The notes under the pieces are model-generated. The model saw only the letters and a list, made by a program, of their open reading frames with translations. It had not been told where the DNA came from and searched no databases. A stretch of DNA of 23,284 bases from a virus: positions 1 through 23,284 of IMG/VR virus record IMGVR_UViG_3300029798_000036, one strand, 5' to 3'. Positions within the stretch are counted from its first letter, which is position 1; each line of letters begins with the position of its first letter. Below, one piece after another: positions 4,336 through 14,510 of this stretch. Made by a program: the position numbers and the translations under genes.

Positions 4336-4659
4336 CTACTTAATAATCCCTATGCCCTTTAAGGCTAAAAATATTGTTGCCAGAGTTACAGCTAAATCCA
4401 TAATAGTTTTAGAGAGGGATTTATTCCCTGCTTTTAGAGCCTTTACTACTGTTAGCTCCGTTGCAATAGCTTTAATATCACTCTCATTACATCTTAGCCG
4501 GGTTACTATACAGGGTTGCCCATTATCTACATTTATTGTTCTATGTAGTAAATCTACTTTGCCTACAAGTAGAGCTTGCCCCATTTTTAGCTCTCCCTGA
4601 TTCTTTACTACCTCTCGGAGCAATTCAAAATCATCCACTCTCTTTATCTTATCCTGCAT
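4336..4659 (-). CDS. Small protein with C-terminal membrane helix; possible holin partner
   Basis: A 107-residue protein. The first 85 residues are charged and helical, with a predicted coiled coil around residues 5-35 and 60-80 and a single Cys pair (NGQPCIVTRLRCNE). A hydrophobic tail near residues 86-104 (LAVTLATIFLALKGIGI) would anchor it in the membrane with the soluble part in the cytoplasm. It is the first gene after the tail tube terminator and lies nine bases upstream of the putative holin, so it opens the lysis island. The AAAGGAGG site precedes ATG 4659. A tail-anchored layout like this occurs in phage lysis regulators and in small XhlA-like proteins, but I cannot assign a family. 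Confidence 0.55.
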   Translation of the reverse strand: MQDKIKRVDDFELLREVVKNQGELKMGQALLVGKVDLLHRTINVDNGQPCIVTRLRCNESDIKAIATELTVVKALKAGNKSLSKTIMDLAVTLATIFLALKGIGIIK

Positions 4660-4740: not shown

Positions 4741-5700
4741 TTAGTAACCTACCTCTGAATTAACCAGAGTAATTAGCATTGACTTCCCGGAGGCTATATT
4801 GTAGTATGCGTTAAATGCTACCGCACAACCTATAAGCCCATCAAGATTCCCGAAAGGGTAAGCCGTGTAGTGTATTTCTGGGATAAGAATATCTAATACA
4901 TTATGCACCCCAGATGAACCTATTTCTGCTCCGGTCATCGTAACCTGTAGGGAGGAGGCAGTATTAGCAAGGAACTTTGCTCTCTCTACCTCATCCTCCA
5001 TATAGATATTAAAACCGCCGGAGATAAGGATTTTACCTATAGCTAAAATATCCTTAATATCTTGGCTCTGATTTAAAGTTCTCTGAGCAAAGCTCTGATT
5101 ATCTATCGTTAGGCTCCAGTCCTTTACAACTGTAGAGGGAGAACCTGCAAGCTTAATAGCACTCTGAAAAAACATAAAGGGAGTAGGAGATGCCCATGTA
5201 GGAGTTGTAGGAGTAGGGTAGGAGTTTTCTGTCTGAAAGATAAAATCTATATCTCCCTTTACCTTCCCATCTACTGCCCCGTTTAGTGCTATAGTCTTTA
5301 CACAGGAGAGGTTATAGGCCTTAGCACTTATCCCTCTCTGCACAGCTATCGTATAACTCGGTAGAGATATTGAGGAGGGGTCACGCTGAAATGCGTGGGA
5401 GTAAACTCCGGTTGTAGGGGTAGTTGTAGTAACCTTACCGAGTAGGGAGTTAAGAATCTCCCCTATATTATCACTCTGAATATCTATCCCGGAGAGCTTT
5501 CCTGAGCCATCTTTTATCCCGGCCTGAGGGCCAAACCTTTCAAACATACCCCTTACATTTTCATCCTCAATAGGAGTTTCCTTATAGTCGGCCTCAGAAT
5601 CTGGAGCCACTGCTATATACTTTGTCGGAGGCAAGACAGCCGATCCCCTTGTGCCTTCTTTTGCCAGTCCTATCCATTTTTGTTCAATTGCGTATGACAT
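4741..5700 (-). CDS. Major tail tube protein
   Basis: A 319-residue protein resembling the Phage_tube_2 type of tail tube subunit. Its N-terminus (QKWIGLAKEGTRGSAVLPP) matches the family's W(I/L)GxxxExTxGTxxxP opening, which precedes beta-rich repeats. The long middle part alternates beta strands with Thr/Pro linkers (near 92-98 and 170-185). The final segment gives the usual closing strand pattern. Hexameric rings of such proteins stack to form the tube of long-tailed phages. No sheath gene precedes it, so the tail should be non-contractile. The ATG has AAAGGAGG upstream, and an intrinsic terminator follows. The final 28 residues may be an extra surface loop. Confidence 0.75.
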   Translation of the reverse strand: MSYAIEQKWIGLAKEGTRGSAVLPPTKYIAVAPDSEADYKETPIEDENVRGMFERFGPQAGIKDGSGKLSGIDIQSDNIGEILNSLLGKVTTTTPTTGVYSHAFQRDPSSISLPSYTIAVQRGISAKAYNLSCVKTIALNGAVDGKVKGDIDFIFQTENSYPTPTTPTWASPTPFMFFQSAIKLAGSPSTVVKDWSLTIDNQSFAQRTLNQSQDIKDILAIGKILISGGFNIYMEDEVERAKFLANTASSLQVTMTGAEIGSSGVHNVLDILIPEIHYTAYPFGNLDGLIGCAVAFNAYYNIASGKSMLITLVNSEVGY

Positions 5701-10328: not shown

Positions 10329-11696
10329 CTACTGCCTTAAGAGCTTAGAGGCCTTAACGAGAGCATCGCTATAAGCGATATTATCCCTTTTCTGAATCTT
10401 ACTCGCCATAAGCGATAATTCAGAATTAGTTACTCCGTGTTCCGGCACTCCTTCCTCTTTAAACTTAGATACATCTCCGGCAAGTTCCGCATCCGTTATC
10501 TCAACCGCTTTAGCACTCTCGGCCATCTTTTTCTCCGAGGTAAGCTCTGAAAAGATAACTCCCTTATGTTTAGTTATCTCCTCTAAGAAGGTATAAAATA
10601 ACTCCTTAAGAGATACCTGAGAATCGTCAAACTTAACCAGCTGGCTCTCCTCTAACCCCTCAGAGAAGGCCTTTACTATCCCATCAAACTTAGGGAGAAG
10701 TATCCCTCTGTTCTTATCAGAGAGAGTTTTAAGCCTCATATCAAAACTATCTTTCCTAAGCTTTTTAACTTCCTCATTAAGCTCTGAGAACTTCTTATCA
10801 GAGAGTATCTGCTCCGGGGTCTTTTCCTCCGGCTTAACTTCTTTATCCGGTATAGCCTCTCCCTTTCCCCACTTATGAGCAAACATAGAGTAGCAGGTAG
10901 TAACCGCTTTGGCCTCATCATCCGCATAATCCTTTCCTATCTCGGCCAAGCAGGAACTCATCCACTCTGCTGTAGGCTTTGCGTTATCATCCATAGCCTT
11001 AGGAGGCTCTTGGCCTTCTCCATCCTTCTTAGCTTTCTTAGCTTTAAACTCGGAGTATTCTCCCTGAACTTCTTTCTTGCCGTGTTTTTTTAGAAGGGCA
11101 TGCTCCTCCGGTGTCCAGTCTTTAGGGTCTTTCTTAGCTATACCCTTAACCTTTTCTTTCTCGGAATCATCTATTACCTCGGAGGCCTTAACTACCGGAG
11201 GAGTTTTATGCTTAGCAGTAACTTTCTTAACTCTCTCTTTCATCTGGTCAACCGCTTTCTTTTGGTCAGGAGTAACCTTATCCTTAGTAGTTTTAAACAT
11301 CTCATCACAGAGTTCATTCTCAAGCTCTACATCATACTCCGGGTTATCCGGGGTAGTAGGGGTAGGAGTAGCATCTGTGTTCTTTTGAATATCTACCACC
11401 TCGCACTTCTTAGAGGCCTCATTAAACTTCATTCCGGGAGGGCATACTTTCCGTATATCCTCCGGGTTAGTTCCGGGAGCAGTCTGGACATTTCCGGTAG
11501 GCTCACATATTGAGCCATTCCACTTAAACCCCTCCGGGCAGGCCGGGGTATCATCAAGCTTTATAGATTTAAGCTGTATAACCTCGGCCAACTGCTTAGA
11601 ATCTATAGAATCAAGTTTATTATCCTCCATAAACTTTATAGCCTCGGTATAGCAGCAAGGCACTCTTGCCTTTATCTCCTCTTTTGTCCATTTCAT
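10329..11696 (-). CDS. Nested in-frame scaffold protein (Mu gpZ-like)
   Basis: An internal ATG at 11696 (codon 204 of the protease gene, same frame) is preceded by AAGGAGG with a 5-base spacer, as good as any true gene start in this window. It would yield a 455-residue protein lacking the protease domain. Mu (I/Z) and lambda (C/Nu3) make their scaffolds from nested in-frame starts in the same way. The product begins MKWTKEEIKARVPCC and contains the Cys repeats, charged region and coiled-coil tail. It overlaps the parent gene by design. Use of this start is inferred from the site. Confidence 0.7.
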   Translation of the reverse strand: MKWTKEEIKARVPCCYTEAIKFMEDNKLDSIDSKQLAEVIQLKSIKLDDTPACPEGFKWNGSICEPTGNVQTAPGTNPEDIRKVCPPGMKFNEASKKCEVVDIQKNTDATPTPTTPDNPEYDVELENELCDEMFKTTKDKVTPDQKKAVDQMKERVKKVTAKHKTPPVVKASEVIDDSEKEKVKGIAKKDPKDWTPEEHALLKKHGKKEVQGEYSEFKAKKAKKDGEGQEPPKAMDDNAKPTAEWMSSCLAEIGKDYADDEAKAVTTCYSMFAHKWGKGEAIPDKEVKPEEKTPEQILSDKKFSELNEEVKKLRKDSFDMRLKTLSDKNRGILLPKFDGIVKAFSEGLEESQLVKFDDSQVSLKELFYTFLEEITKHKGVIFSELTSEKKMAESAKAVEITDAELAGDVSKFKEEGVPEHGVTNSELSLMASKIQKRDNIAYSDALVKASKLLRQ

Positions 11697-12305
11697 TGTA
11701 TCCTCCTTAAAATCAGTTTCGGAGAAAGTAACAAGTGCCATACTCCCTTCCGAGTAGAATATCTTATGTATATCTCCTAAGCCTTTAACTGCCGGGACAT
11801 CTGCACCGAGTAAGGCAATAGCTCTTATAACCTTCCCTATATTCTCATTAGTTCCGGGATATTTAAACTCATCATAAAGCTCTATACTTACCTTGCTATA
11901 CCTCTTACTCTTTATAAGGTCATTAACCATATCCGGGAGGTTAGTAAAATCGGCATAAAGGGTATCTCCTACCCGGTAAAAATTAGTTCCATACCCGGCA
12001 GAAGGGAGGCCATCATTCTTAAGGAGTTCCTGATTTTCATTGTGTCCGAGCTTGAGAGGAGGGGTATGTATATCTGAGCGGATTAGAGCATTTGTATTCT
12101 TAGCCATCTCATCAAGGTCTGCCTGAGTATATTCCTTACCCTTCCAGTTTCCTATCTTAAATACCGGAACTGCCCTGATAGTATCCGGGGTATCATCATT
12201 CTTTTTAACTTTCTTAAGGCCTCCGGTAACATGGACAGAGGCAGGAGAGGGTGATATAAACTCTTTCTTTTTAGCTATCATCTTATCGTAATCAGCTTTA
12301 TTCAC
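10329..12305 (-). CDS. Mu I-like prohead protease fused to scaffold
   Basis: A 658-residue protein. Residues about 42-180 form a Mu gpI-like prohead protease: IRAVPVFKIGNWKGKEYT, KLGHNENQ (probable catalytic His88) and KVSIELY (probable Ser140). The enzyme should cleave scaffold and itself during capsid maturation. From residue 204 a second coding unit begins. It contains two Cys-loop repeats (C256-C267, C288-C301), a Pro/Thr linker, a highly charged Lys/Glu region, a WMSSCL...CYSMFAHKWG segment (448-479) and a coiled-coil C-terminal scaffold part (about 500-600). It starts at GTG (12305) with AGGAGG five bases upstream. The long Lys/Glu-rich insertion makes it larger than simple Mu I proteins. 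Confidence 0.85.
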   Translation of the reverse strand: MNKADYDKMIAKKKEFISPSPASVHVTGGLKKVKKNDDTPDTIRAVPVFKIGNWKGKEYTQADLDEMAKNTNALIRSDIHTPPLKLGHNENQELLKNDGLPSAGYGTNFYRVGDTLYADFTNLPDMVNDLIKSKRYSKVSIELYDEFKYPGTNENIGKVIRAIALLGADVPAVKGLGDIHKIFYSEGSMALVTFSETDFKEDTMKWTKEEIKARVPCCYTEAIKFMEDNKLDSIDSKQLAEVIQLKSIKLDDTPACPEGFKWNGSICEPTGNVQTAPGTNPEDIRKVCPPGMKFNEASKKCEVVDIQKNTDATPTPTTPDNPEYDVELENELCDEMFKTTKDKVTPDQKKAVDQMKERVKKVTAKHKTPPVVKASEVIDDSEKEKVKGIAKKDPKDWTPEEHALLKKHGKKEVQGEYSEFKAKKAKKDGEGQEPPKAMDDNAKPTAEWMSSCLAEIGKDYADDEAKAVTTCYSMFAHKWGKGEAIPDKEVKPEEKTPEQILSDKKFSELNEEVKKLRKDSFDMRLKTLSDKNRGILLPKFDGIVKAFSEGLEESQLVKFDDSQVSLKELFYTFLEEITKHKGVIFSELTSEKKMAESAKAVEITDAELAGDVSKFKEEGVPEHGVTNSELSLMASKIQKRDNIAYSDALVKASKLLRQ

Positions 12306-12323
12306 TCTCTCCTCCTAATAAAA

Positions 12324-12389
12324 AAGAGTATTAACCTTGTATCTATCCGGAGCTGCCCGGTCTGCCATAAGCAGAAGGTTAATACTCTT
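12324..12389 (-). ncRNA. Branched structured RNA (leader/attenuator or small RNA) upstream of head operon
   Basis: A perfect 15-bp inverted repeat (AAGAGTATTAACCTT on the minus strand at 12389-12375, pairing with 12338-12324) encloses 36 nt. Inside are two small hairpins: CTGC/GCAG with a 5-nt loop (12374-12362) and CCGG/CCGG with a 6-nt loop (12360-12347). The 3' arm runs into TTTT, giving a U-tract. A near-consensus promoter ends just upstream, so a transcript would begin at or within two bases of the stem. The head operon's Shine-Dalgarno follows the U-tract. It may be a terminator/attenuator, a 5' stabiliser or a roughly 70-nt small RNA. Confidence 0.65.
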
Positions 12390-12396
12390 ACTGGGG

Positions 12397-12425
12397 ATTA
12401 TACTAAATGTTTTTTAATTTGTCTA
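12397..12425 (-). promoter_or_regulatory. Near-consensus sigma70-type promoter for the structured RNA and head operon
   Basis: On the minus strand, TAGACA (12425-12420; one mismatch to TTGACA) and a perfect TATAAT (12402-12397) are separated by exactly 17 bases. The -35 box overlaps the TAG stop of the glycosyltransferase gene. The predicted start is at 12391-12389, at the 5' base of the branched hairpin. This would drive the capsid genes separately from the terminase/portal genes. Confidence 0.75.
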
Positions 12426-14510
12426 TAGCTTAAATCTTTTCTTAATATCCGCATAGGTTTTTCTCTCCTCATCTAATACTCCCTTAGCATATAGATTCTC
12501 TAAGTTAACAGTAGTTGAGGTAAAGTGAACTATAAAATTACTTACTACCTTAACTATCTCCTTATGTTTCCTTAATACCGCCATATCATAAATCCAGTTA
12601 TCTCCGCAGAATATCTTAAGCTCCTCCGGTATAGGCTCCCAGTTCTCTTTCCGGCCAAAGATAAACCAACCGCCTGAAACATCCCGGAGAGAGACATGAA
12701 CCGCAAGAACCTCCTCCGATTCTGAACCCTTTTTAAAGTAATCCTCCGGGAGCTTATTCTCTGTTAAGTAGGTTACTACCCCTATCTCTGAGTGGCTTTC
12801 TAAGAGAGCTACGCACTCGGTTATTATCTCCGGCCTTACTAAAACATCATCATTAAGGAGGAGGTAGTAGGGAGTATCCGTAAGCTCTAAGCCAAAGTTC
12901 CAAGCCGGGTTAACATACCGATTAGCTCCGGTAAAGATATTAACCTTATCACTCCACTTCCGAGGGTGTTCTTTAAGCTTTCCGCTTTCCGTATTATCTA
13001 ATATGTTAATAGTTTTTATACAGGAACTCTTACTAAGCTCCATAACCGCTTTCTCAAATAACTCCATATTACATTTAGCTAAGGTAGGGATAACCACTGT
13101 AACGGAATTAGAGGGAAGTAACTTACCTTTAGCTGTAGTAGTCTTTAGGTATTCTCTCTCCCCTAAGAACTTATCTACTCTCCCGGCAACCTCCGGCTTA
13201 GCCTCTCTAATTGCATCTCGGAGCATTAGCAGGTGTTCTGCTGAGGCCTCCTTAAAGTAAATCTCTAACCCCTTATCCTCTTTACCAAAGTTAATATAAA
13301 CATCGGCTAAGTGTAACCTATTATTTAGAGTATCCTCAAACTTAATAGCCATCTCTGCAAACCTTTCCGCAAGCTCCGGCCTATAGTCTATAGCATAGGT
13401 TCTTGCTAAGAGGTTTATTATAGTTGTATTCTTAGGAGATTCCGTAAGAGCTAATTTAAAGCAATCTATAGCTCTCTGATACTTCTTAGCCTCTAAGTAA
13501 ATCTCTCCCTTAGCTATATAAGGCCTCCAAGATACTTGAGCTAAATCGTAGGTTACTAATTTATTTGCGTTCTTAGAGTTATCTATAGCCTTATTAAATA
13601 GCTCTAAAGCTATCTCTGAGTGGCCTTCATAATCATACCAGAGGCCGAGGTTATAATAATAGCCGGGGTTAATAGTTTCAATAGCCTTAAACTCCTCCAT
13701 CCTCTCTTTCTTTCCGGCTCTCATACAGCTCACCAGTAGGCCTTCATAGATAGTAGGGGTATAAATCTTATGTATATTCTCCGAGTTCTCTTTTATAAAG
13801 GCTAAGAACTTCTCATAATAGGCTATACTTTTTTCATACTCCCCTATTCCGTAATACTGAACTCCGAGATGATAAAAGAAGTAAGGCTCATCTGGGGTAA
13901 GCTTAATCTGTTTTTCTAAGAGCTTTATATTCCGGTTATCCGTTCCTTTCCGTGCCTTCTCCCTTCTTAAATACCCGGTATGGTGTATTACTAAGCCTCT
14001 ATTACGGAGCTTAGGATACTTACCCGGAATACCCTTAACCATATCCTCTCCGGGATTATTTATATTCTCATGGACAATAAAGTGGTATTTAATTTCCGGG
14101 TCATTAGGGAATAAGCGGTAGTTACTTGATATAGCAGGTTCAGGTAGGCCTTCCATTTGAGAGGCTATAGTAACTAAGTATAAAGCTCTCTCCTCCTTAT
14201 CTAAAATCTTTTTAATAGTTTCATTACAGGATTCTGTTAGAGTTTCATCACAATCTAATTGAAAGATATAATCACCTGTAGCATATTTTAAGGCCTCATT
14301 CCGAGCTGCAGAGAAGTCTATATTATCCTCAGTAAAGGGAAAGGAGTAAACCTTATCGGTATATCTTTTAGCAATCTCTATTGTATTATCCGTGCTCCCG
14401 GTATCTATTACTACTATCTCGTAAGGGTATGCTCCTATACTTCCGAGGCAAGCCGGGAGGTTCTTAGATTCATTCTTAGCAATAATACAAAAGGTTACTG
14501 ATTTTCTCAT
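12423..14510 (-). CDS. Bifunctional glycosyltransferase: GT2 - TPR repeats - GT2
   Basis: A 695-residue cytosolic protein with three regions. Residues 1-195 form a GT2-family GT-A domain (TFCIIAKNESKNLPACLGSI, VVIDTGSTDNT and the metal-binding DCD at 86-88). Residues about 200-440 form tetratricopeptide-like helical repeats (e.g. YFYHLGVQYYGIGEYEKSI), a protein-binding scaffold. Residues about 470-695 form a second GT2-like domain (VTVVIPTLAKCN, AWNFGLELTD, LLLNDDVLV). GT2-TPR proteins typically glycosylate proteins or glycans. Lying between portal and capsid genes, it probably modifies virion proteins, though modified DNA or host glycans cannot be excluded. AAAGGAG precedes ATG 14510, and a promoter and hairpin follow the stop. 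Confidence 0.85.
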   Translation of the reverse strand: MRKSVTFCIIAKNESKNLPACLGSIGAYPYEIVVIDTGSTDNTIEIAKRYTDKVYSFPFTEDNIDFSAARNEALKYATGDYIFQLDCDETLTESCNETIKKILDKEERALYLVTIASQMEGLPEPAISSNYRLFPNDPEIKYHFIVHENINNPGEDMVKGIPGKYPKLRNRGLVIHHTGYLRREKARKGTDNRNIKLLEKQIKLTPDEPYFFYHLGVQYYGIGEYEKSIAYYEKFLAFIKENSENIHKIYTPTIYEGLLVSCMRAGKKERMEEFKAIETINPGYYYNLGLWYDYEGHSEIALELFNKAIDNSKNANKLVTYDLAQVSWRPYIAKGEIYLEAKKYQRAIDCFKLALTESPKNTTIINLLARTYAIDYRPELAERFAEMAIKFEDTLNNRLHLADVYINFGKEDKGLEIYFKEASAEHLLMLRDAIREAKPEVAGRVDKFLGEREYLKTTTAKGKLLPSNSVTVVIPTLAKCNMELFEKAVMELSKSSCIKTINILDNTESGKLKEHPRKWSDKVNIFTGANRYVNPAWNFGLELTDTPYYLLLNDDVLVRPEIITECVALLESHSEIGVVTYLTENKLPEDYFKKGSESEEVLAVHVSLRDVSGGWFIFGRKENWEPIPEELKIFCGDNWIYDMAVLRKHKEIVKVVSNFIVHFTSTTVNLENLYAKGVLDEERKTYADIKKRFKL

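Follow-up and report, generated by a model that had tools for sequence, protein, structure and literature searches.

An uncultivated tailed phage (IMGVR_UViG_3300029798_000036) carries, directly before its capsid genes, a near-consensus promoter that points into a branched hairpin with a U-tract. The stretch that we analysed, referred to below as the window, covers positions 1 to 23,284 of this record (23,284 nucleotides); the late genes and all parts of the leader lie on its minus strand, and the phage's early genes are not included. Judged from the DNA, the promoter-hairpin unit is a real leader that probably limits expression. For the more specific reading, in which the element would be a promoter-proximal attenuator (leader terminator) of the capsid operon giving a terminated RNA of ~66-72 nt and read-through to the capsid genes, we consider the chances to be even.

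The promoter and hairpin in the window

The late genes are arranged in the order small terminase, large terminase, a glycosyltransferase-like gene and a fused Mu-type portal/gpF protein, followed by a GT2 glycosyltransferase with TPR repeats (12423..14510), the head maturation protease (10329..12305, GTG start), a cement protein and the major capsid protein. The protease is thus the first gene of a protease-cement-major capsid unit. It was assigned by matches to phrog_976 (E 1e-25) and phrog_3894 (E 5e-19), and in tblastn its product matches phage head maturation proteases. The leader lies within the 117 nt that separate the GT2 glycosyltransferase stop codon from the protease GTG. A GT2 glycosyltransferase with TPR repeats is also found between portal and protease in the relative L012 (5128-7176). 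Because other relatives hold different genes at this place (a promoter-ORF-terminator arrangement in L106 and other genes in L007, L010, L018 and L186), the portal-protease slot looks like an insertion hot spot.

The promoter is of the sigma70 type, TAGACA-17-TATAAT (12397..12425), with the -35 element at 12425-12420 and the -10 element at 12402-12397, and the -35 element opens with the stop codon that ends the upstream glycosyltransferase gene. It had been called the best promoter of the window from the letters alone, and indeed no other promoter-like site in the whole window reaches its 11/12 matches when scored against the sigma70 consensus. Since the total number of promoter-like sites in the window equals that given by shuffled sequence, the promoter score alone is not strong evidence. 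A second promoter-like site with the TAGACA-17 arrangement, TAGACA-17-TAATAT (9/12), was observed at 19614-19586 on the minus strand, directly before the small terminase gene. From the spacing to the -10 element, transcription of the leader is predicted to start at 12389..12392. The canonical start, 7 nt past the -10 element, is 12390 and lies 1 nt outside the stem, which itself begins 8 nt after the -10 element. The proposal of a predicted start at the foot of the stem is therefore supported, the start being placed within about 3 nt of the hairpin.

The hairpin comprises 66 nt (12324..12389). Its outer arms, AAGAGTATTAACCTT (12389-12375) and AAGGTTAATACTCTT (12338-12324), pair over 15 bp, of which only four are G-C pairs, and they enclose inner hairpin 1 (12362..12374, with a CUGC UUAUG GCAG core) and inner hairpin 2 (12347..12360, CCGG ... 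CCGG). Pair probabilities are about 1.0 for the two inner hairpins, and about 0.9-1.0 when the core pairs of the outer stem are included. The stem is directly followed by the U-tract UUUUUUAUU (U6-A-UU, 12317..12325), the first two U of which are paired in the stem and which is the predicted 3' end of a ~70-nt RNA, and then by the Shine-Dalgarno (SD) sequence AGGAGG (12311..12316). For the 102-nt transcript the minimum free energy is -29.5 kcal/mol (z = -2.8), a value that 2 of 200 shuffles equalled or bettered. All parts that the sequence-only reading had described, from the 15-bp stem with its two inner hairpins to the SD of the head operon, are thus present. A stable stem running directly into a U-tract is the arrangement of an intrinsic (Rho-independent) terminator, and the terminator score of the window hairpin is positive (d = 9.2, computed with the published formula). 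When the whole contig was scanned for a promoter of at least 10/12 followed by a perfect stem of at least 9 bp abutting a T-tract, a single occurrence was found in the window, at the leader. Elsewhere on the minus strand, genes 4741-5700 and 4336-4659 are separated by a gap in which a terminator-like stem of 13 bp (ATCCTGCCTGTCTC...), followed by a TATTTTT tail, was noted at 4714-4681.

Other functions of the hairpin were also considered. The sequence-only reading had suggested that CTGC/GCAG pairing between the loops could let the RNA switch. This pairing exists in the letters, but it reaches -24.0 kcal/mol compared to -29.0 kcal/mol and leaves the outer stem intact. Moreover, the stem has no RNA ahead of it from which an anti-terminator could form, which makes a riboswitch-like switch unlikely. 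A leader peptide inside the hairpin (in the window MADRAAPDRYKVNTLFY, ending just before the SD) was rejected; it has no SD of its own, and the corresponding frames of L105, L052 and L180 run for 2-9 codons only. By eye, the loops were not convincing as an anti-SD. The inverted repeat might also act as a protein operator; its letters are not conserved.

Leaders before homologous protease genes

The only close relative of the window is a twin contig, IMGVR_UViG_3300025162_000138, which is 99.95% identical and uninformative for covariation. Divergent relatives were found with a portal alignment and more of them with protease and capsid alignments. The same order of promoter, branched hairpin, abutting U-tract, SD and homologous protease start is present in five of these (L012, L018, L098, L105 and L052). 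Their letters are unrelated, which indicates that the outer stems were replaced as pairs. The check on homologues that the sequence-only reading had named does not refute it: the architecture is kept in these five. The hairpin is also patchy among the homologues as a whole. The folding z-scores of the homologous leaders are -4.5, -3.4, -3.8, -3.8 and -6.8, and each leader beats nearly all its shuffles. No relative of the protease was found in the genome collection, and the leader DNA was not found among isolate phages.

Where the stem begins relative to the -10 element differs between the leaders (5 nt after it in L012, 11 nt in L018, 9 nt in L098, 30 nt in L105 and 53 nt in L052). In the window and in L012, L018 and L098, no more than about 5 nt separate the predicted start from the stem, and this bears on the main rival to the attenuator, a 5'-terminal stabiliser in which the hairpin caps the mRNA against 5'-end-dependent decay and the U-rich stretch merely aids ribosome loading. 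We consider this rival unlikely, though to be taken seriously. It explains both a promoter upstream of the hairpin and unblocked expression, and the aprE leader of B. subtilis works in this way, its stem-loop standing at the extreme 5' end ahead of the SD, as in the window; removal of that stem-loop cuts mRNA stability from >25 to about 5 min (PMC11805744). However, a hairpin at the 5' end is seen in the four leaders just named and not in L105 and L052: the stem lies about 23 nt from the predicted start in L105, 46 nt in L052 and 150 nt in L106, and the U-tract still abuts it. An aprE-type stabiliser has no need for a U-tract touching the stem, whereas a T-tract abuts the stem in seven of the eight hairpins noted before protease homologues, the exception being L016. 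With the stem at the 5' end in only four leaders and the T-tract abutting in seven of eight, the shared feature is terminator geometry. In addition, terminator scores were above 0 in all nine leaders tested.

A blind scan of whole contigs (promoter of at least 10/12, then a T-tract hairpin with at least 9 perfect pairs) returned one unit per contig, at the protease only, in the window and its twin, L012, L098, L105 and L052. The unit of L018 was found once the stem threshold was relaxed, and a looser scan of all loci also gave a few coding or antisense chance matches. Promoter and hairpin occur together at 5 of 16 protease starts and at 0 of 91 other late-gene starts in the relatives (Fisher p 4e-5, with rows that are not independent of the tree and thresholds set after some of the cases had first been seen).

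The complete unit is absent from 11 of the 16 protease homologues, which counts against the attenuator. On the protease tree it is scattered, with about five changes and no clustering. Since the hairpin is patchy, it is not indispensable to this head operon. Promoter-like sequences occur at the same place without a hairpin in L014 and L017, and weaker ones in L095-L097, so the promoter slot is common and the hairpin an optional module. In L106 a terminator hairpin of 22 bp precedes the protease SD, with a small ORF separating it from the promoter, and L016 has a hairpin before the protease that lacks a U-tract. In translations read by eye, the products of the portal gene of L016 (7968-11219) and the large terminase gene of L186 (2084-4369) each look interrupted near conserved motifs by an intein-like insertion. 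In L013 (2830-2910), a consensus promoter with an 11-bp hairpin and U-rich tail at about +1 was observed ahead of a small ORF close to the terminase genes.

A promoter, a structured RNA and a terminator together make up a complete small-RNA gene, and a hairpin loop of the UAUG type can be drawn in the window, L018 and L098. A stand-alone ~70-nt RNA acting in trans, by protein binding or base pairing, might accordingly be the main product. We regard this as very improbable, because the RNA is almost wholly paired, no letters are conserved and the element always lies directly before the SD of a head gene. Moreover, a comparison with Rfam 15 gave no match that reached the gathering threshold, either for the window or for eleven related loci, in line with the earlier remark that the RNA resembles no known family.

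Comparison with other leaders

A pattern scan of viral contigs revealed a separate lineage of near-copies (L180, L186, L229 and L172) that encodes a portal, a Peptidase_S78 protease and an HK97-type capsid (Phage_capsid). In its leader, TTTACA-18-TATAAT is followed at about +1 by a branched hairpin that encloses two inner hairpins; UUUUUUAUUAGGAG and the ATG of the protease come next. This promoter-hairpin-U-tract unit before the protease of a lineage with an HK97-type head counts in favour of the attenuator. Among the 80 matches of the scan that were listed, it was the one clear further family; most others were distal terminators or chance matches.

A different, alignable terminator-type hairpin precedes the portal gene in eleven more distant portal relatives (L037, L044, L053, L054, L057, L067, L074, L082, L083, L085 and L087), several of which have a clear promoter ahead of it. 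One of its stem pairs shows a compensatory change from G-C to A-U in 4 of the 11 rows. About 100 nt upstream of the portal gene, this leader carries GAGC[N]CC together with a hairpin (GAGAGCCA), a U-tract and an SD region able to pair with GAGCNCC; the N position forms several pair types with the SD and is broken in 4 of the 11 rows. From these letters, the portal-gene leader is possibly one that sequesters the SD.

In the late leader of phage lambda, pR'-tR', a strong late promoter fires into an intrinsic terminator before the late genes, which gives a short terminated RNA and is overcome by Q antitermination. The window leader resembles it, in geometry only, in that a promoter is followed by a terminator-like hairpin before late genes. 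It differs in the place of the hairpin, which spans about +1 to about +70 and sits midway along the late operon, ahead of the protease. The put RNA of HK022 promotes antitermination and has no U-tract after it, and RNase III sites need none. These systems, the latter represented by the T7 RNase III sites, share with the window a structured RNA soon after a phage promoter (compared by sequence through Rfam only), but the window hairpin has a U-tract. Both pR' and tR' were used in PMC4604602.

In position, the window promoter matches PI of phage Mu, which serves gene I and is needed for the synthesis of heads (PMC4461284). Both PI and the window promoter are dedicated internal promoters just before a head maturation protease/scaffold gene, which is followed by the major head gene. 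Mu late promoters have non-consensus -10 and -35 elements and need protein C (PMC4461284), whereas the window promoter is near consensus (11/12). The Mu record also shows a terminator-like hairpin with a U-rich tail between genes G and I, just upstream of PI, so that the order is hairpin, PI, gene I. By analogy, the window hairpin might mainly terminate the upstream portal/glycosyltransferase transcript, with the promoter overlapping it by chance, and that the slot is a common insertion site (a glycosyltransferase in the window, varied genes in L106, L007, L010, L018 and L186) would suit such an operon boundary. We nevertheless find it distinctly unlikely, since an insulating terminator should precede the promoter and the promoter lies upstream of the hairpin in six lineages. 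This promoter-before-hairpin order is the reverse of that of Mu and is the unusual feature of the leader.

Predicted attenuation of the capsid operon

Under the attenuator reading, the strong internal late promoter would start RNA at the hairpin foot. The nascent RNA would fold into the branched hairpin with the U-tract directly after it, and a fraction of polymerases would be released with a ~66-72-nt RNA. Those that read through would go on to the SD just past the U-tract and to the genes for the protease, cement and major capsid proteins, and transcripts from the portal genes upstream would meet the same hairpin. The discrete RNA of about 66-70 nt, or regulated leader, that had been proposed before follows naturally from the predicted start, the hairpin and the U-tract, and stands as a prediction. 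A scan of the window for minus-strand promoters of at least 9/12 found none from the hairpin to where the protease gene ends, so that most capsid transcripts must cross the hairpin. Since a fully efficient terminator right after the promoter would silence its own operon, partial or regulated read-through must be assumed; read-through may simply be incomplete, or a phage factor may raise it late in infection, as Q does in lambda. Termination at the leader may in this way set the dose or timing of the capsid genes. The branched hairpins, at 53-76 nt, are unlike a textbook short-loop terminator, which counts against this reading, as does the low G-C content of the window's outer stem.

The leaders could, more speculatively, belong to a recurrent class of capsid-operon leaders, in which a late promoter fires into a branched terminator and a phage factor overrides it late in infection. 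Such a class would have arisen or spread in unrelated Mu-type and HK97-type head modules because production of the capsid protease and shell is delayed or metered. We think this rather doubtful. A literature search found no paper describing such a leader, with older journals thinly covered.

If termination is real, RNA structure at one site would set the ratio and timing of the protease, scaffold and shell proteins, and the ~70-nt phage RNA would be an easily testable by-product. That the unit recurs with unrelated letters, in head modules of two kinds, would then suggest a design general to phage late operons and at present missed by annotation pipelines and Rfam.
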